Source: Methanolobus mangrovi
GTDB lineage: Archaea > Halobacteriota > Methanosarcinia > Methanosarcinales > Methanosarcinaceae
Reading direction: 5' to 3'
DNA length: 64,000 bases
NCBI RefSeq assembly: GCF_031312535.1
Contig: NZ_CP133594.1
Coordinates: 1,240,001 to 1,304,000, forward strand
Within the stretch, counting starts at the first letter, position 1; every line of letters starts with the position of its first letter. Below, piece after piece: positions 4,392 to 58,601 of this stretch. The notes beneath the pieces were generated by a model, which saw nothing but the letters and a program-made list of their open reading frames with translations, ran no database searches and had not been told where the DNA came from. The position numbers and the translations under genes were made by a program.

Positions 4392-4640
4392 TCAACTATC
4401 ATTACAAACATTGCTTGTCTGAGATTTGTCAGGAACTCCCACAAAGGCAATCTTGTCATCAATGATCGTTGTAGGTATTGAACGGATCTTAAACTTTTTT
4501 GCAAGCTCTTTTCCTTCAGGAGTGTCCAGTTCTACTTCCTCGTACTCAAAATCGCACTGTTCTTTTAAGTCTCGCCACATTTTCTTTGCAGTCGGACAAA
4601 AGTGACACCATTCAGAATGAACTAAAGTAACCTTTACCAT
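4392..4640 (-). CDS. Thioredoxin/glutaredoxin-like redox protein
   Basis: A small (82-residue) thioredoxin-fold protein. The active site is WCHFC near residue 12-16, followed by a typical cis-proline loop SIPTTII about residue 56-62. It is shorter than classical thioredoxin and resembles the glutaredoxin-like thioredoxins of methanogens. The ATG at 4640 follows AGGAG; a GTG at 4652 directly abuts that site and is unlikely. The adjacent trxB gene is the obvious reductase. The C-terminus (SQTSNVCNDS) carries an extra cysteine. Confidence 0.9.
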   Translation of the reverse strand: MVKVTLVHSEWCHFCPTAKKMWRDLKEQCDFEYEEVELDTPEGKELAKKFKIRSIPTTIIDDKIAFVGVPDKSQTSNVCNDS

Positions 4641-5014
4641 ATTATTCCACACTCCTTTTTATTGGTCAATATTCTATTAGCTAGTAGAGTATATCAAATT
4701 AATGACTGTAAAAAGTTAGTTATCGCCGTTAACAGGTTCAATTGACATATCATCTTTTGAAAATGGAACATCTTTCCGTTTGTTGAAGAATCTATAGAAG
4801 AGTTAGATCATTGTATTTGTATGGATCTCTTAAAGTATACTGTATCAGATAAATTGGTGAGTCCATGTCTTGATTGAACCATTCGTTTGCATCACTCTTG
4901 CAAATATTAAGGTATTAAATAATTATTTTAGAGTTTATATTACAATTATGACAAAATATATCATTTTGTTACAAATGATAGATAATGTATATACATTTAC
5001 AGATAGTGATGCAG
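4641..5014. other. Gene-free AT-rich spacer
   Basis: No plausible coding frame is seen. It should contain the promoter of the thioredoxin pair (minus strand, near 4680-4700) and lies upstream of the surface-protein promoter. A palindromic GTATATAC is present near 4987. Confidence 0.6.
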
Positions 5015-5026
5015 TAAATATAAAAG
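5015..5026 (+). promoter_or_regulatory. TATA box of the surface-protein gene
   Basis: TAAATATAAAAG fits an archaeal TATA element. Transcription would start near 5045-5050, just before the first of a series of hairpins, which supports this choice over other AT-rich runs nearby. Confidence 0.5.
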
Positions 5027-5044
5027 CAATGCAGTCATAAATTA

Positions 5045-5295
5045 ACAGTGTGAACACTGGGGAGTGTTCAGTAGCATATCTAGTGAATATGCAGGAGTGA
5101 TGTATATACAGATTTGGCAGAAGTATTTAGCCAAATGATAATGTCAACAGAGCGTTAGCTTTGTTAGAATATGATCTTTGGTGTTATATTTGACCGATTA
5201 TTATCGGCATCGATACAGAATACCAAATATGTAATACGGATACCTCCAGAAAAACCTCAAACTTAAATTGTAAAAAATTAGATGGTGGTAGAGTA
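5045..5295 (+). promoter_or_regulatory. Long structured 5' leader of the surface-protein gene
   Basis: About 250 bases between the predicted transcription start and the ATG contain consecutive inverted repeats: GAACACT/AGTGTTC (5052-5069, GGGG loop), GCATAT/ATATGC (5074-5092), ATTTGGC/GCCAAAT (5112-5136), AACAGAGC/GCTTTGTT (5146-5165, one G-U) and CCGAT/ATCGG (5194-5207) nested inside TTTGGTG/TACCAAA (5177-5227). Such packing is unlikely to be random and suggests an mRNA-stabilising or regulatory leader. A GGTGG ribosome site precedes the ATG. Confidence 0.6.
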
Positions 5296-8200
5296 ATGAT
5301 AAAATCAACATGTTTGTTCGCAGTGATATTGATGATATTGTTGTCAATTCCTGCTGCAACTGCAATCACCGTGGACGGAGCCAAGTCCGTGGGAGAATGG
5401 GATGAAGATTGGGCATTCGGCCAGTATAATGCCTCAACATACAATTCAAACGGACCATTTGGAGACAGAATGGTGGTCAGACAGGGAACTTATGCAGCAG
5501 ATACCGGACTATGGTATGATACTGATCCTAAAAATGATGCAGGTCCTAGTTTTAGTGATGGAATGGCCGTTAATGGAGATGCTTCAACGAACAATTCAAG
5601 CGGTCTTGACCTTGCAAGGTTCTACGGACATTATGACCCAATAGAGGACAAGCTTTACGGTATGGCGGAAGTTTATGGTATCCCCGGAGACAGTGATGGA
5701 GATGGCGATACAGGAACTATAACCCCTCCAGACGCGAACGGAACTGCAGGTCCAGTTGGATTTGGTCTTTCTGGCGCGGAAGTCTTTAGTATATATGTAT
5801 CCCAGGATTCTAATCCTGCAAATTATACAATTATCAGTGTAACTAACAACGACTGGTCAGTTAGTTCAACTGTTGGACTAACGTATGGAGAGATAGATGC
5901 CAGACTTACAAGCGATGCATTCAATGTAGCAGATCCGAACGAACTGCCAAAATCTGTCTATGAGATCAGCATTGCAAACTTCAGTCAGCACTACGATCTG
6001 AGCCCAGGAAATATTCTGGCTGTTCAGGTAGGTGCAGGTAATAACCTGGATGGACCTGGTGAAGATAGCGCAACTGTATTTATAGAGATTCCAACTCCTG
6101 CCATTGATATAGAGAAGGCGACCAATGGAGAGGACGCAGATAGTCCGACAGGACCTTACATCATCGTTGGAGATCTGGTGACATGGACATACAATGTGAC
6201 AAACACAGGTAACGTCCCACTTGTCAACGTCAACGTGACCGATGATATGGAAGGATACATAGGAACCATTGCGTACCTTGGTGTGGGCGAATCCAATACA
6301 AGCCTGTTTGCTACAGGAACTGCAGCTGCAGGACAGTATGCAAACAATGCAACTGCAACAGGATACTATGGTCCTATAGAAGTTTCTGATACGGATCCAA
6401 GCCACTACTTCGGTGCCGCTCCAGCAATTGACATAGAGAAGGCAACCAATGGAGAGGATGCAGATAGTCCGACAGGACCTTACATCATCGTTGGAGATCT
6501 GGTGACATGGACATACAACGTGACTAACATTGGTAACGTTCCACTTGTCAACGTCAACGTGACCGATGATATGGAAGGATACATAGGAACAATTGCATAC
6601 CTCGGAGTGGGTGAATCCAACACAAGTCTGTTCGCTACAGGAACGGCAGCTGCAGGACAGTATGCAAACAATGCAACTGCTGAAGCTGTATATGATGGTC
6701 AGCCTGTAAATGATACAGATCCAAGCCACTACTTCGGTGCTGCTCCAGCAATTGACATAGAGAAGGCAACCAATGGAGAGGATGCAGATAGTCCAACAGG
6801 TCCTACTATCCCTGTGGGAGATCTGGTGACATGGACATACAACGTGACTAACATTGGTAACGTTCCACTTGTCAACGTCAACGTGACCGATGATATGGAA
6901 GGATACATAGGAACAATTGCATACCTCGGAGTGGGTGAATCCAACACAAGTCTGTTCGCTACAGGAACGGCAGCTGCAGGACAGTATGCAAACAATGCAA
7001 CTGCTGAAGCTGTATATGATGGTCAGTCTGTGAACGACACGGACCCAAGCCACTACTTCGGTGCTGCTCCAGCAATTGACATAGAGAAGGCAACCAATGG
7101 AGAGGATGCAGATAGTCCAACAGGTCCTACTATCCCTGTGGGAGATCTGGTGACATGGACATACAACGTGACTAACATTGGTAACGTTCCACTTGTCAAC
7201 GTCAACGTGACCGATGATATGGAAGGATACATAGGAACAATTGCATACCTCGGAGTGGGTGAATCCAACACAAGTCTGTTCGCTACAGGAACGGCAGCTG
7301 CAGGACAGTATGCAAACAATGCAACTGCTGAAGCTGTATATGATGGTCAGTCTGTGAACGACACGGACCCAAGCCACTACTTCGGTGCTGCTCCAGCAAT
7401 TGACATAGAGAAGGCAACCAATGGAGAGGATGCAGATAGTCCAACAGGTCCTACTATCCCTGTGGGAGATCTGGTGACATGGACATACAACGTGACTAAC
7501 ATTGGTAACGTTCCACTTGTCAACGTCAACGTGACCGATGATATGGAAGGATACATAGGAACAATTGCATACCTCGGAGTGGGTGAATCCAACACAAGTC
7601 TGTTCGCTACAGGAACGGCAGCTGCAGGACAGTATGCAAACAATGCAACTGCTGAAGCTGTATATGATGGTCAACCTGTAAATGATACAGATCCAAGCCA
7701 CTACTTCGGTGCTGCTCCAGCAATTGACATAGAGAAGGCAACCAATGGAGAGGATGCAGATAGTCCAACAGGTCCTGCTATCCCTGTGGGAGATCTGGTG
7801 ACATGGACATACAACGTGACTAACATTGGTAACGTTCCACTTGTCAACGTCAACGTGACCGATGATATGGAAGGATTCATCGGAACAATTGCATACCTTG
7901 GTGTGGGCGAATCCAATACAAGCCTGTTTGCTACAGGAAATGCAGCTGCAGGACAGTATGCGAACAATGCAACTGCTGAAGCTGTATATGATGGTCAGCC
8001 AGTAAATGATACGGATCCAAGCCACTACTTCGGTGCTGCTCCAGCAATTGACATAGAGAAGGCAACCAATGGAGAAGATGCAGATAGTCCGACAGGTCCT
8101 GCTATCCCTGTTGGAGATCTGGTGACATGGACATACAACGTGACCAACATTGGTAACGTTCCACTTGTCAACGTCAACGTGACCGATGATATGGAAGGAT

Positions 8201-8793
8201 TCATCGGAACAATTGCATACCTTGGTGTGGGCGAATCCAATACAAGCCTGTTTGCTACAGGAAATGCAGCTGCAGGACAGTATGCGAACAATGCAACTGC
8301 TGAAGCTGTATATGATGGTCAGTCTGTGAACGACACGGACCCAAGCCACTACATCGGTACAGAAGCACCTGGTGTCGGTACTCCAGGTTACTGGAAGAAC
8401 CATCCTGATGCATGGCCAGTCGAAGAGATAGAGATTGGTAACGTCACCTACAATGTAAGTGAAGCAATTGCAATCATGGAGGAACCCACAGCTAAAGACA
8501 AGACGTACAATATGTTCGAACAGCTCGTGGCAGCTAAGTTGAACGTCCTTGTAGGCAACCCATACGGTTCATGTGTAATAGAAAGTGAAGAAAATGGACT
8601 TCCTTTTGGAGTCGATTTCATTGCTGAAGCAGATGAATGGATGGAAATGTATGGTCCTGCAGGTTCTGGAGTCGAAGCAAAGAGTGACGCATGGAAGTAT
8701 ATGACAGACGGAATCCACTCAGGAAGTGATCTTCTCGACTGGCTTGACGCCTACAACAACGGATACTTCTCGTGTGCTCCTCACAGGGACTGA
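5296..8793 (+). CDS. Secreted surface protein with seven tandem beta-sandwich repeats
   Basis: The 1165-residue protein has an N-terminal signal peptide (about 1-23, ending PAATA), a unique N-terminal domain (about 24-265), seven almost identical 108-residue repeats (270-1025) and a C-terminal domain (about 1030-1165) that starts with GTPGYWKNHP, a motif found in several archaeal and bacterial surface proteins. Each repeat has the form IDIEKATNG...GDLVTWTYNVTN.GNVPL...VNVTDD..., which resembles the DUF11/CARDB-like beta-sandwich modules of extracellular proteins and carries many N-glycosylation sequons. No C-terminal membrane anchor or sorting motif is visible, so attachment to the cell is unclear. 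It is preceded by its own promoter and structured leader and followed by a terminator, so it is probably monocistronic. A role in the cell envelope or adhesion is inferred. Confidence 0.88.
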   Translation: MIKSTCLFAVILMILLSIPAATAITVDGAKSVGEWDEDWAFGQYNASTYNSNGPFGDRMVVRQGTYAADTGLWYDTDPKNDAGPSFSDGMAVNGDASTNNSSGLDLARFYGHYDPIEDKLYGMAEVYGIPGDSDGDGDTGTITPPDANGTAGPVGFGLSGAEVFSIYVSQDSNPANYTIISVTNNDWSVSSTVGLTYGEIDARLTSDAFNVADPNELPKSVYEISIANFSQHYDLSPGNILAVQVGAGNNLDGPGEDSATVFIEIPTPAIDIEKATNGEDADSPTGPYIIVGDLVTWTYNVTNTGNVPLVNVNVTDDMEGYIGTIAYLGVGESNTSLFATGTAAAGQYANNATATGYYGPIEVSDTDPSHYFGAAPAIDIEKATNGEDADSPTGPYIIVGDLVTWTYNVTNIGNVPLVNVNVTDDMEGYIGTIAYLGVGESNTSLFATGTAAAGQYANNATAEAVYDGQPVNDTDPSHYFGAAPAIDIEKATNGEDADSPTGPTIPVGDLVTWTYNVTNIGNVPLVNVNVTDDMEGYIGTIAYLGVGESNTSLFATGTAAAGQYANNATAEAVYDGQSVNDTDPSHYFGAAPAIDIEKATNGEDADSPTGPTIPVGDLVTWTYNVTNIGNVPLVNVNVTDDMEGYIGTIAYLGVGESNTSLFATGTAAAGQYANNATAEAVYDGQSVNDTDPSHYFGAAPAIDIEKATNGEDADSPTGPTIPVGDLVTWTYNVTNIGNVPLVNVNVTDDMEGYIGTIAYLGVGESNTSLFATGTAAAGQYANNATAEAVYDGQPVNDTDPSHYFGAAPAIDIEKATNGEDADSPTGPAIPVGDLVTWTYNVTNIGNVPLVNVNVTDDMEGFIGTIAYLGVGESNTSLFATGNAAAGQYANNATAEAVYDGQPVNDTDPSHYFGAAPAIDIEKATNGEDADSPTGPAIPVGDLVTWTYNVTNIGNVPLVNVNVTDDMEGFIGTIAYLGVGESNTSLFATGNAAAGQYANNATAEAVYDGQSVNDTDPSHYIGTEAPGVGTPGYWKNHPDAWPVEEIEIGNVTYNVSEAIAIMEEPTAKDKTYNMFEQLVAAKLNVLVGNPYGSCVIESEENGLPFGVDFIAEADEWMEMYGPAGSGVEAKSDAWKYMTDGIHSGSDLLDWLDAYNNGYFSCAPHRD
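6103..8370 (+). repeat. Seven tandem 324-bp repeats within the surface-protein gene
   Basis: Units begin at 6103, 6427, 6751, 7075, 7399, 7723 and 8047, exactly 324 bases apart. Units 3, 4 and 5 are nearly identical in DNA. Sequence variants are shared in a patchwork: units 1, 6 and 7 share one version of the GVGESNTSL segment and units 2-5 another, while two versions of the linker (QPVNDTD in 2, 5, 6; QSVNDTD in 3, 4, 7) are distributed differently. This points to recent duplication and recombination between units. Confidence 0.97.
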
Positions 8794-8810
8794 AAGACGT
8801 AAATATTGAA

Positions 8811-8850
8811 GAACAGGGCTTTCTTTTCCCTGTTCCACTTTTCTATTTTC
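8811..8850 (+). terminator. Terminator of the surface-protein gene
   Basis: GAACAGGG (8811-8818) pairs perfectly with CCCTGTTC (8828-8835) and is followed by a T-rich run. It lies 18 bases after the stop codon. The remaining spacer to 9095 shows nothing recognisable. Confidence 0.75.
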
Positions 8851-9095
8851 AACCTACCTAATTCTGTAAAATCTCCTATGGATGATTCTCATCGAAGAAT
8901 GACAATATATTAGAATCTGACTTCTTAGAATCAGGATCTGATCATTAAGGAGCTAACATTTGATAAATATGCAATTCCATGAAGATAAGACTCATTCAGG
9001 ATATGTTACAAATATAGATATCCAGAGAAGAATGAAAGGTTGCAGATTATCTTCGTGGAAATGTTCTGTCAAGATATAGTCTTAAAAGCATAGCA

Positions 9096-9809
9096 TCAAC
9101 CTTTTGTAATACACTCGTACCTGACATCAGCTCTTTTAAGTTCAGGCACATCACCCCAGAATCCCATATACTCGCCCTGGATGACAATTGCACCTGTTAT
9201 CCCTGGAACATCTTTCACAACATCAAATGACCTTTCAACAGCATCTTTTCCAATGTCAGTGGCATTTCCAAGAGCTGTGGCTGCTGAATCAGCCAGTGAT
9301 ACATTATCAGAGAAAACAACGGCTGCATCTGCCATACCAAAACTTATGGAGGGGCCAACACTGCCCGAAGAAGTGCACACACCTGTAATAGAATCCCTCG
9401 ATTCCATAACAAAACCAATATCTTTCAAAGGAGAATTGCCGGCATAGATTCCCATCACCACCGGACGGTCATTGATAATGGAAATATCCCCGCCATTGTC
9501 CACGATTGCAAAAGTGGCACCAGCATCTGCCATGGCCTCAACTGCAAGAGCAGAGATAGTACCGGCAACAGCACTCATAGGACCAATACCCATTGCATTT
9601 CCAGCTTCAACCATCCTCCGGACAACCTCAGGGAAGTCACCGTCCATGTCATAGGGTTCCAGAGTACTCTGGAAAAATGGATCAGAAACGATATATGATT
9701 CCAGCTCCCTGCGTTGTGCCCTTATAGACTCGCGAGCCACCTCTATGTAAGAAGGAGTATCAGCCTGGATAGTTACAATGGTCTCTTTCAACCTGAAATG
9801 TTCTTTCAT
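9096..9809 (-). CDS. UPF0280 (ApbE-like) protein, homocysteine-forming operon
   Basis: A 237-residue UPF0280/COG2122 protein, distantly related to the ApbE flavin transferase fold. Recognisable stretches are [18 protein letters not shown] (about 90-107), VDNGGDISI and [21 protein letters not shown] start it at the ATG at 9809 ([14 protein letters not shown], as in relatives); an upstream GTG at 9839 overlaps the previous stop but gives an unusual hydrophobic extension. It follows the NIL-ferredoxin gene by 26 bases. From memory, this family is a genetic partner of DUF39 and NIL-ferredoxin in sulfide-dependent homocysteine synthesis in some anaerobic bacteria; its exact chemistry is unknown. 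Confidence 0.88.
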
Positions 9810-57034: not shown

Positions 57035-57634
57035 CATTAATTTTTAACTAATAAAGGATGACTATTCCTTTTTTGATAGATCAAAAATAAGATAGTCCCA
57101 TCACCAGGTGTGAGATATCTGTGCGATTATTAAACATTATATAAGTATATCGCATGAACAGCAGAAAACCATTATTTTTGTAGATTTTGTGCCATGCACA
57201 ATGTAGACTTCGACTTTTGACGATACTTAAATCAAACGGTTAACAAATGATAAGAAAATAGATACGAATCTAAAAACAAGGAATGAAATGAAATAGTTAA
57301 CTAAGTTAAATGACATTTATTAGCATCGGACCAAAATAATAGTGTGTGTTTAAAAAATATATTAATTGATAATTAAATATGCCAATAACAAGCAAACTTT
57401 AGTTACATGCCGAGAAACAAGGAAATCTGCCAGTCATATATAAAACTAACCCATACACCCAAAAATTCCAACCGCAGCGAGTAAATAAAAATAATAAGTC
57501 CCACACATACTGTCTAAAGATAATCATATCTAGAAGCCCTAATATACTACTAAAAATGAAAACAGGGAGTACTGTGCAAGAAAATGTACTATTTTTCTAT
57601 TTGAATTATATTATAAATGCACTAAACCGATAGG
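57035..57634. other. Long gene-free region upstream of mtaC
   Basis: 600 bases, very AT-rich, with no plausible gene on either strand. By analogy with other methanol operons it may hold binding sites for regulators of mta expression. I see no repeated motif that I would call. Confidence 0.5.
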
Positions 57635-57839
57635 TTTATATACATATTTTGTTTATGTAATTGTGTGGAAAGATGAAGTTAGTTAATGACTAAAGATCGT
57701 TAGCAAATTGTTGTGGAGACTTTTGCTACATCACTCAAAGTCATAAGCCAACTGATGCCCATCTACTGCTTTATCGCATACTTCGCTTGAATGTATGACA
57801 AGTAGTAGAGTCAATCTAGATCTAAGGAGGTAGAATTAG
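57635..57839 (+). promoter_or_regulatory. mtaCB promoter and about 175-base 5' leader
   Basis: TTTATATA (57635-57642) is a strong TATA box; transcription should begin near 57665. The leader ends in AAGGAGGT (57824-57831), the best ribosome site in the window. Before it lies an extended hairpin: TCTACTGCT (57762-57770) with AGTAGTAGA (57801-57809), one mismatch, enclosing CATAC/GTATG (57777-57797). Long mtaCB leaders are known in Methanosarcina; a regulatory role is inferred here. Confidence 0.65.
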
Positions 57840-58601
57840 ATGGATATAGACCCAAGTAAAATATTAGTAAGGTACAATGTTGCTAAAGAAAAAGCACAGT
57901 CACCAGAAGAGTTAGCAGCTGAGATGTTCCCAACTGCAGAACCAGCAAGGTCAATCTGTGCTGCAATCTTTGATGGAGAAGAAGACGACGTAATCGAAGG
58001 CCTTGAGAAGGCAATCGAGGGCGGAGCAGACCCAATAGCACTTATTGATGATGTGCTCATGGTCGGAATGAAGATCACAACAGACCTGTATGACCAGGGT
58101 GTAATCTTCCTGCCAAACGTTATGATGTCAGCAGATGCAATGCTCGAGGGTATCGAGTTCTGTAAAGAACAGGGCGGTTCATCACCAAAACCAAAAGGAA
58201 AGGTTGTCTGCCACGTAGCAGAAGGTGACGTACACGACATCGGTAAGACAATTGTAGCAGCACTCCTCAGAGCAGCTGGATATGAAGTAGTAGACCTTGG
58301 ACGTGACGTACCTGTCGATGAAGTTATCGCAGCTGTAAAGAAGGAAAGCCCAATGATGCTTACCGGAACAGCATTGATGACAACAACAATGTATGCATTC
58401 AAAGAAGTCAATGACAGACTCCTCGAGTCTGGTATCAAGATACCATTCCAGTGTGGTGGCGGAGCAGTAAACCAGGACTTCGTAACCCAGTATGAACTCG
58501 GAGTATATGGAGAAGAAGCAGCAGATGCACCAAAGATGGCAGACGCAATCGTTGCCGGAAAAGGACTTGCACAACTGAAGGAAACCTTCCACAAACACTA
58601 A
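57840..58601 (+). CDS. mtaC: Methanol corrinoid protein MtaC
   Basis: 253 residues. An N-terminal helical cap (about 10-115) precedes a Rossmann B12 domain with GDVHDIG (129-135): His132 is the lower cobalt ligand, in the D-x-H-x-x-G motif. Later GTALMTTTM and CGGGAVNQDF complete the fold. It takes the methyl group from methanol via MtaB and passes it to MtaA. Codon use (many ATC, AAC, GCA) fits high expression. The stop is 12 bases before mtaB. Confidence 0.98.
   Translation: MDIDPSKILVRYNVAKEKAQSPEELAAEMFPTAEPARSICAAIFDGEEDDVIEGLEKAIEGGADPIALIDDVLMVGMKITTDLYDQGVIFLPNVMMSADAMLEGIEFCKEQGGSSPKPKGKVVCHVAEGDVHDIGKTIVAALLRAAGYEVVDLGRDVPVDEVIAAVKKESPMMLTGTALMTTTMYAFKEVNDRLLESGIKIPFQCGGGAVNQDFVTQYELGVYGEEAADAPKMADAIVAGKGLAQLKETFHKH

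Follow-up and report, generated by a model that had tools for sequence, protein, structure and literature searches.

A moderately structured candidate 5′ leader upstream of a repeat surface-protein gene in Methanolobus mangrovi

Genomic context of the surface-protein gene

The DNA analyzed here, referred to as the window, is a stretch of 64,000 nucleotides of the Methanolobus mangrovi genome (contig NZ_CP133594.1, positions 1,240,001 to 1,304,000 of the forward strand), which is 2.62 Mb in size and assembled as a single contig. At the locus of interest, a gene encoding a secreted repeat protein starts at ATG 5296 behind a weak Shine-Dalgarno (SD)-like sequence, and 643 bases containing no gene separate this ATG from a divergent thioredoxin-like gene (4392-4652, minus strand). 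Seven tandem 324-bp repeats, 95% alike, occupy window positions 6095-8358 within the surface gene and are likely prone to copy-number change. The features of the region are summarized in Table 1.

Table 1. Features of the surface-protein locus, in window coordinates.
Feature	Position	Strand	Remarks
TATA-like box TGTATATA, rival	4986-4993		TATA scoring
TATA-like box AAATATAAAAG	5016-5026	+	From sequence; behind the proposed start near 5045 (putative)
H1, TGAACACT-GGGG-AGTGTTCA	5051-5070	+	Perfect 8-bp dyad; alternative 5-bp hairpin 5046-5059
H2	5074-5092	+	6-bp stem
TATA-like box TGTATATA, rival	5101-5108	+	Inside the proposed leader; start would fall near 5132, within H3
H3, ATTTGGC...GCCAAAT	5112-5136	+	7-bp stem, 11-nt loop
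H4, AACAGAGC-GTTA-GCTTTGTT	5146-5165	+	8 bp including one G-U
H5	about 5177-5227	+	9-bp outer helix enclosing a 5-bp inner hairpin, 5194-5207
Anti-SD-like TACCTCC	5241-5247	+	Pairs with the SD (stem 5235-5294) or, in an alternative fold, with 5057-5069
Weak SD-like GGTGGT	5284-5289	+	From sequence; 6 nt before the ATG
Secreted DUF7507/DUF11 repeat surface protein	5296-8793	+	1165 aa

In 24 genomes of the genus that carry the same trxB-thioredoxin gene pair, homology to the window stops between about 4658 and 4772; where the fetched flank of a relative extends far enough, the similarity picks up again near 9096, where a PRK04334-type gene ends. In at least 17 of these genomes, the intervening gene has a beginning that resembles the AIM24 gene identified in L064, and no AIM24 orthologue was detected in the M. 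mangrovi genome itself (best match 31% identity, E 4e-4). Judged from this comparison, the surface gene together with its entire upstream region (window 4660-9096) is a lineage-specific replacement at a site where most relatives carry AIM24.

Homologues of the N-terminal 267 aa of the surface protein occur in 22 of 112 family genomes, M. mangrovi itself contributing two paralogues; the remaining searched genomes of the order yielded no homologue, and the viral_contigs set no match. The regions upstream of these homologues, those of both paralogues included, are unrelated to the sequence preceding ATG 5296. Most homologues share, 78-99 nt upstream of the ATG, a promoter block that approximates TACTGAACTTTGTTTGCTGCA and has a TATA box within a few bases after it. 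Carriers of this block belong to Methanolobus and Methanohalophilus (for example G000:C1:446915 and 451465, corresponding to L052 and L048, as well as L023, L030 and L047), and the position of the TATA box suggests that the homologues with the block, the paralogues among them, have leaders of roughly 40-60 nt. The window surface gene lacks the TACTGAACTTTGTTTGCTGCA block. Its SD-like GGTGGT is also found upstream of the Methanohalophilus homologues. An inverted copy of the block on the minus strand at 4992, which scored 5.3 with a first matrix and below 5 with a cleaned one, was dropped.

Inverted repeats and folding strength

The first-pass annotation described five successive inverted repeats upstream of the ATG, one of them nested, and proposed that they form a structured leader. 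All five are present in this order within 5046-5227, and the nested arrangement holds, with the inner hairpin lying inside the outer helix of H5. H4 forms in essentially all predicted folds between 4 and 42 °C.

The 251-nt stretch preceding the ATG is more stable than its shuffled counterparts: its minimum free energy (MFE) is -64.0 kcal/mol against a mean of -50.0 kcal/mol for 200 dinucleotide shuffles (z -3.3; -3.2 and -2.9 in repeats with 40 shuffles), and none of the 200 shuffles is as stable. Shuffled sequences seldom contain perfect stems of 8 and 7 bp (P 0.01). Three non-overlapping Watson-Crick stems of 6 bp or longer occur with a shuffle P of 0.015, a value that rises to 0.32 when G-U pairs are allowed in the same count. 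On the plus strand the excess is concentrated in 5073-5252 (z -3.6 to -4.0 in 120-nt windows). The minus strand over a similar stretch reaches z about -3, and folding nearly as strong on this strand is what would be expected if the signal reflected inverted repeats in the DNA rather than RNA structure. The excess of stability over chance is real but moderate in size.

To place this value in its genomic background, we folded the 251 nt located 5′ of each open reading frame that has this much free intergenic sequence in front of it, across 864 kb of the genome (n=175). These regions have a mean z of -0.6, with 4.6% falling below -3, and the surface-gene leader ranks 7th of the 175, among the top few percent. 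It is well folded, yet not exceptional within its own genome: the following rank, 8th, is taken by the leader of mtaC (window 57589-57839, z -3.0), a methanol corrinoid protein gene starting at 57840 and assigned by sequence. The upstream regions of five S-layer-domain genes of the same genome gave z values from +0.6 to -2.4. The top-ranked region of the sample is G000:C1:176797-177047 (L096), with z -4.9, which precedes a predicted frame of about 300 aa (frame at 17048 in L096).

Promoter elements and possible transcription starts

The transcription start near 5045 is an unproven guess, as the TATA-like boxes at 4986, 5016, 5101 and a further one at 5184 are all possible. The boxes at 4986 and 5101 equal or exceed the score of AAATATAAAAG when compared with the Methanosarcina consensus quoted in PMC11409679, and the best-box score is matched by shuffled sequence in 78% of trials. 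Depending on the box used, a leader of about 250, 165 or 80 nt could result. Usage of more than one start is plausible for this gene, because two starts have been mapped for the cell-surface gene Mpsy_1554 in M. psychrophilus (PMC5378194). The putative promoter is flanked by an inverted repeat (4890-4905 and 5087-5102, 14 of 16 nt), a pair of this quality being found in 8% of shuffles (P 0.08); the idea of an invertible promoter (inverton) was set aside at this value.

Accessibility of the Shine-Dalgarno region

Two competing folds of the leader, one in which the anti-SD-like segment closes the SD and one in which it pairs with 5057-5069, have equal MFE (-64.0 each). The SD stem itself is no more stable than in shuffles (z -0.7), and folds of the full leader are predicted to contain it with a probability of about 0.06 at 37 °C and 0.01 at 10 °C. 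The SD has a predicted accessibility of 0.43 in the full leader, compared with a mean of 0.28 in shuffled leaders; as the real SD is the more accessible, the leader does not close it beyond chance. With increasing temperature, the predicted mean unpaired probability of the SD changes from 0.40 at 4 °C to 0.45 at 42 °C. A thermosensor, one of the functions suggested by the first-pass annotation, is therefore unsupported, given that predicted access to the SD barely depends on temperature. In transcripts starting at or after 5133, the SD is predicted to be shut (unpaired 0.13-0.14 between 5 and 37 °C, versus 0.42 in the full leader).

Searches for related leaders and known RNA families

A blastn search of the leader against its own genome, 27 genomes of the genus and 112 of the family returned the self match alone, apart from two 42-nt matches in another genus that lie inside a coding gene and that we attribute to chance. 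Likewise, a single-sequence covariance model of 5071-5233 run against the 112 family genomes recovered its own match and nothing convincing besides; the next match (E 0.0035, one genome among 112), intergenic and beside pgk, was judged to be chance. An exact 20-mer of H4 has no match in viral_contigs, and a bacterial-type scan found no terminator-like site on the plus strand between 4600 and 5400.

At the Rfam gathering score, the whole window contains one tRNA and the leader contains no match, so that a known riboswitch or other known RNA family is unsupported; the best weak matches within 4653-5320 (E 2.2 and 5) are far under the cut-off. The proposal of a novel conserved RNA element is unsupported as well, because the genomes searched contain no further copy. 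The lack of homologues follows from the lineage-specific replacement of the surface gene and its upstream region.

Comparison with known leaders of methanogens

Leaders of this length were initially described as unusual in methanogens, a statement that the literature contradicts. In M. psychrophilus, 51% of mRNAs have a 5′ untranslated region (5′ UTR) longer than 50 nt and 24% one longer than 150 nt (PMC5378194), 5′ UTRs of 100-500 bp are on record for Methanosarcina (PMC11409679), and a review covers the long 5′ UTRs of M. mazei as well as leader-based control of CODH/ACS (PMC3600222). In the case of slmA1 (MA0829, Mbar_A1758), the main S-layer gene of Methanosarcina, the mapped leaders measure 159 and 154 nt and contain several predicted structures, with three short dyads upstream of the start (PMC3361143). 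As for switches, RNA thermometers were first used in archaea in 2024, in engineered form, and validated archaeal riboswitches are few (PMC11549558).

The slmA1 leaders resemble the present one in belonging to an abundant surface-protein mRNA of the same family, with predicted structures and nearby dyads. They differ in that their start is mapped and their sequence is more than 91% identical between species, whereas the Methanolobus leader is unique among the 27 genomes of the genus and the 112 of the family, whether searched by blastn or with a covariance model, and has a putative start. The products also differ: slmA1 encodes an S-layer protein (PF07752) and the window gene a DUF7507/DUF11 repeat protein. 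The mtaA and mtaC leaders of cold-adaptive methanogens are similarly long and structured, and contribute to mRNA stability in the cold (PMC5378194); the mtaC leader of M. mangrovi itself folds with about the same z as the surface-gene leader. These are leaders of methanogenesis genes, however, and the stability effect measured for them is for the window leader a proposal. A third parallel is offered by the temperature-dependent alternative 5′ UTRs of M. psychrophilus R15, a member of the same genus, whose two starts at Mpsy_1554 could have a counterpart in the several TATA boxes found here. Masking of the ribosome-binding site is predicted for R15, whereas the masking predicted for the SD of the window leader is weak and scarcely responds to temperature, and the starts are putative.

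Interpretation of the hairpin region

We tentatively interpret the hairpin stretch as the 5′ untranslated leader of the mRNA for the surface protein; it would be one of the long leaders with moderate structure that are common in Methanosarcinaceae, and its stems would act generically and not as a ligand or temperature switch (probability about 0.45). Transcription would begin near 5045, placing the hairpins in the mRNA, where the stems would slow decay from the 5′ end and would keep the start region free of strong structure. This interpretation is favored by the stable fold of 5073-5252 with its five hairpins, ranked next to the mtaC leader, by the position of these hairpins in an intergenic region that holds neither a gene nor a known RNA family, and by the SD being predicted as more open than in shuffled leaders. 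Conversely, the internal TATA boxes could yield a shorter mRNA devoid of H1 to H3, conservation is absent from every relative searched, the minus strand folds almost equally well, and the leaders of the paralogues seem to be short and to follow another promoter block. By analogy with the close precedents described above, an mRNA-stabilizing structured leader of an envelope gene is possible.

Neutral intergenic sequence ranks next after the ordinary long structured leader. The hairpins may be neutral, lying in an A+T-rich intergenic region that was rearranged recently, with a short true leader and dyads that have no role; this scenario is doubtful but has a sizeable chance of being correct. It would account for the uniqueness of a region standing in for the AIM24 gene of relatives, and it accords with the several percent of upstream regions in this genome that fold as well as this one, with the TATA boxes near 5101 and 5184 that would shorten the leader, and with the short leaders that the paralogues seem to possess. 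It is opposed by a folding z near -3 that no shuffle attains and by the scarcity of the perfect 8-bp and 7-bp stems in shuffled sequence.

Alternatively, the dyads could act as DNA operators: a repressor of the surface gene would bind to H1, located at the start site, and to the palindromic TGTATATACA boxes. The position of the perfect H1 dyad (4-bp spacer, about +7 to +26 of the proposed start), the presence of TGTATATACA at 4986 and 5101, the folding excess on both strands and the dyads upstream of the slmA1 start are all compatible with such control. The H1 dyad is not repeated, however: its one exact copy in the genome is H1 itself, and near-copies with up to three mismatches occur at 7 sites, compared with 11 for a reversed control pattern, so that we rejected H1 as a genome-wide operator. 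Moreover, the longer loops and the G-U pairs of H3 to H5 are better suited to RNA, and the operator model is unlikely.

A bistable RNA switch, in which UACCUCC (5241-5247) would either close the SD (5284-5290) or pair with 5057-5069 so that folding of the 5′ hairpins decides translation, is more improbable again. The equal MFE of the two modeled folds, the predicted closure of the SD in transcripts from 5133 onward and the masking of ribosome-binding sites predicted in alternative longer 5′ UTRs of M. psychrophilus (PMC5378194) are in its favor, and it is weakened by the low probability and chance-level stability of the SD stem, by SD access that hardly moves from 4 to 42 °C, and by the lack of comparative support and of an Rfam match. 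More speculatively, and with a very small chance of being correct, the leader of a newly placed surface gene may have become a lineage-specific switch that replaces the promoter block of the paralogues, with competing 5′ hairpins and an anti-SD mimic adjusting translation to the length of the leader (through alternative starts) or to some signal. A separate gene for a small RNA, lying 5′ of the surface gene, is similarly remote, since the compact stable block 5073-5252 and the 195 small RNAs, many of them intergenic, detected in M. psychrophilus (PMC5378194) are outweighed by the absence of homologues, of an Rfam match and of a plus-strand terminator-like site in the bacterial-type scan.

Taken as an ordinary long leader, the hairpin stretch adds one more structured leader to a group in which such leaders are common, and its weight is modest. 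A more useful by-product of the analysis is the conserved promoter block of the related surface genes of Methanolobus and Methanohalophilus, which has been lost here along with the gene neighborhood. The window gene thereby offers, on a small scale, a natural example of a surface gene that has come under a new promoter and acquired a new leader.
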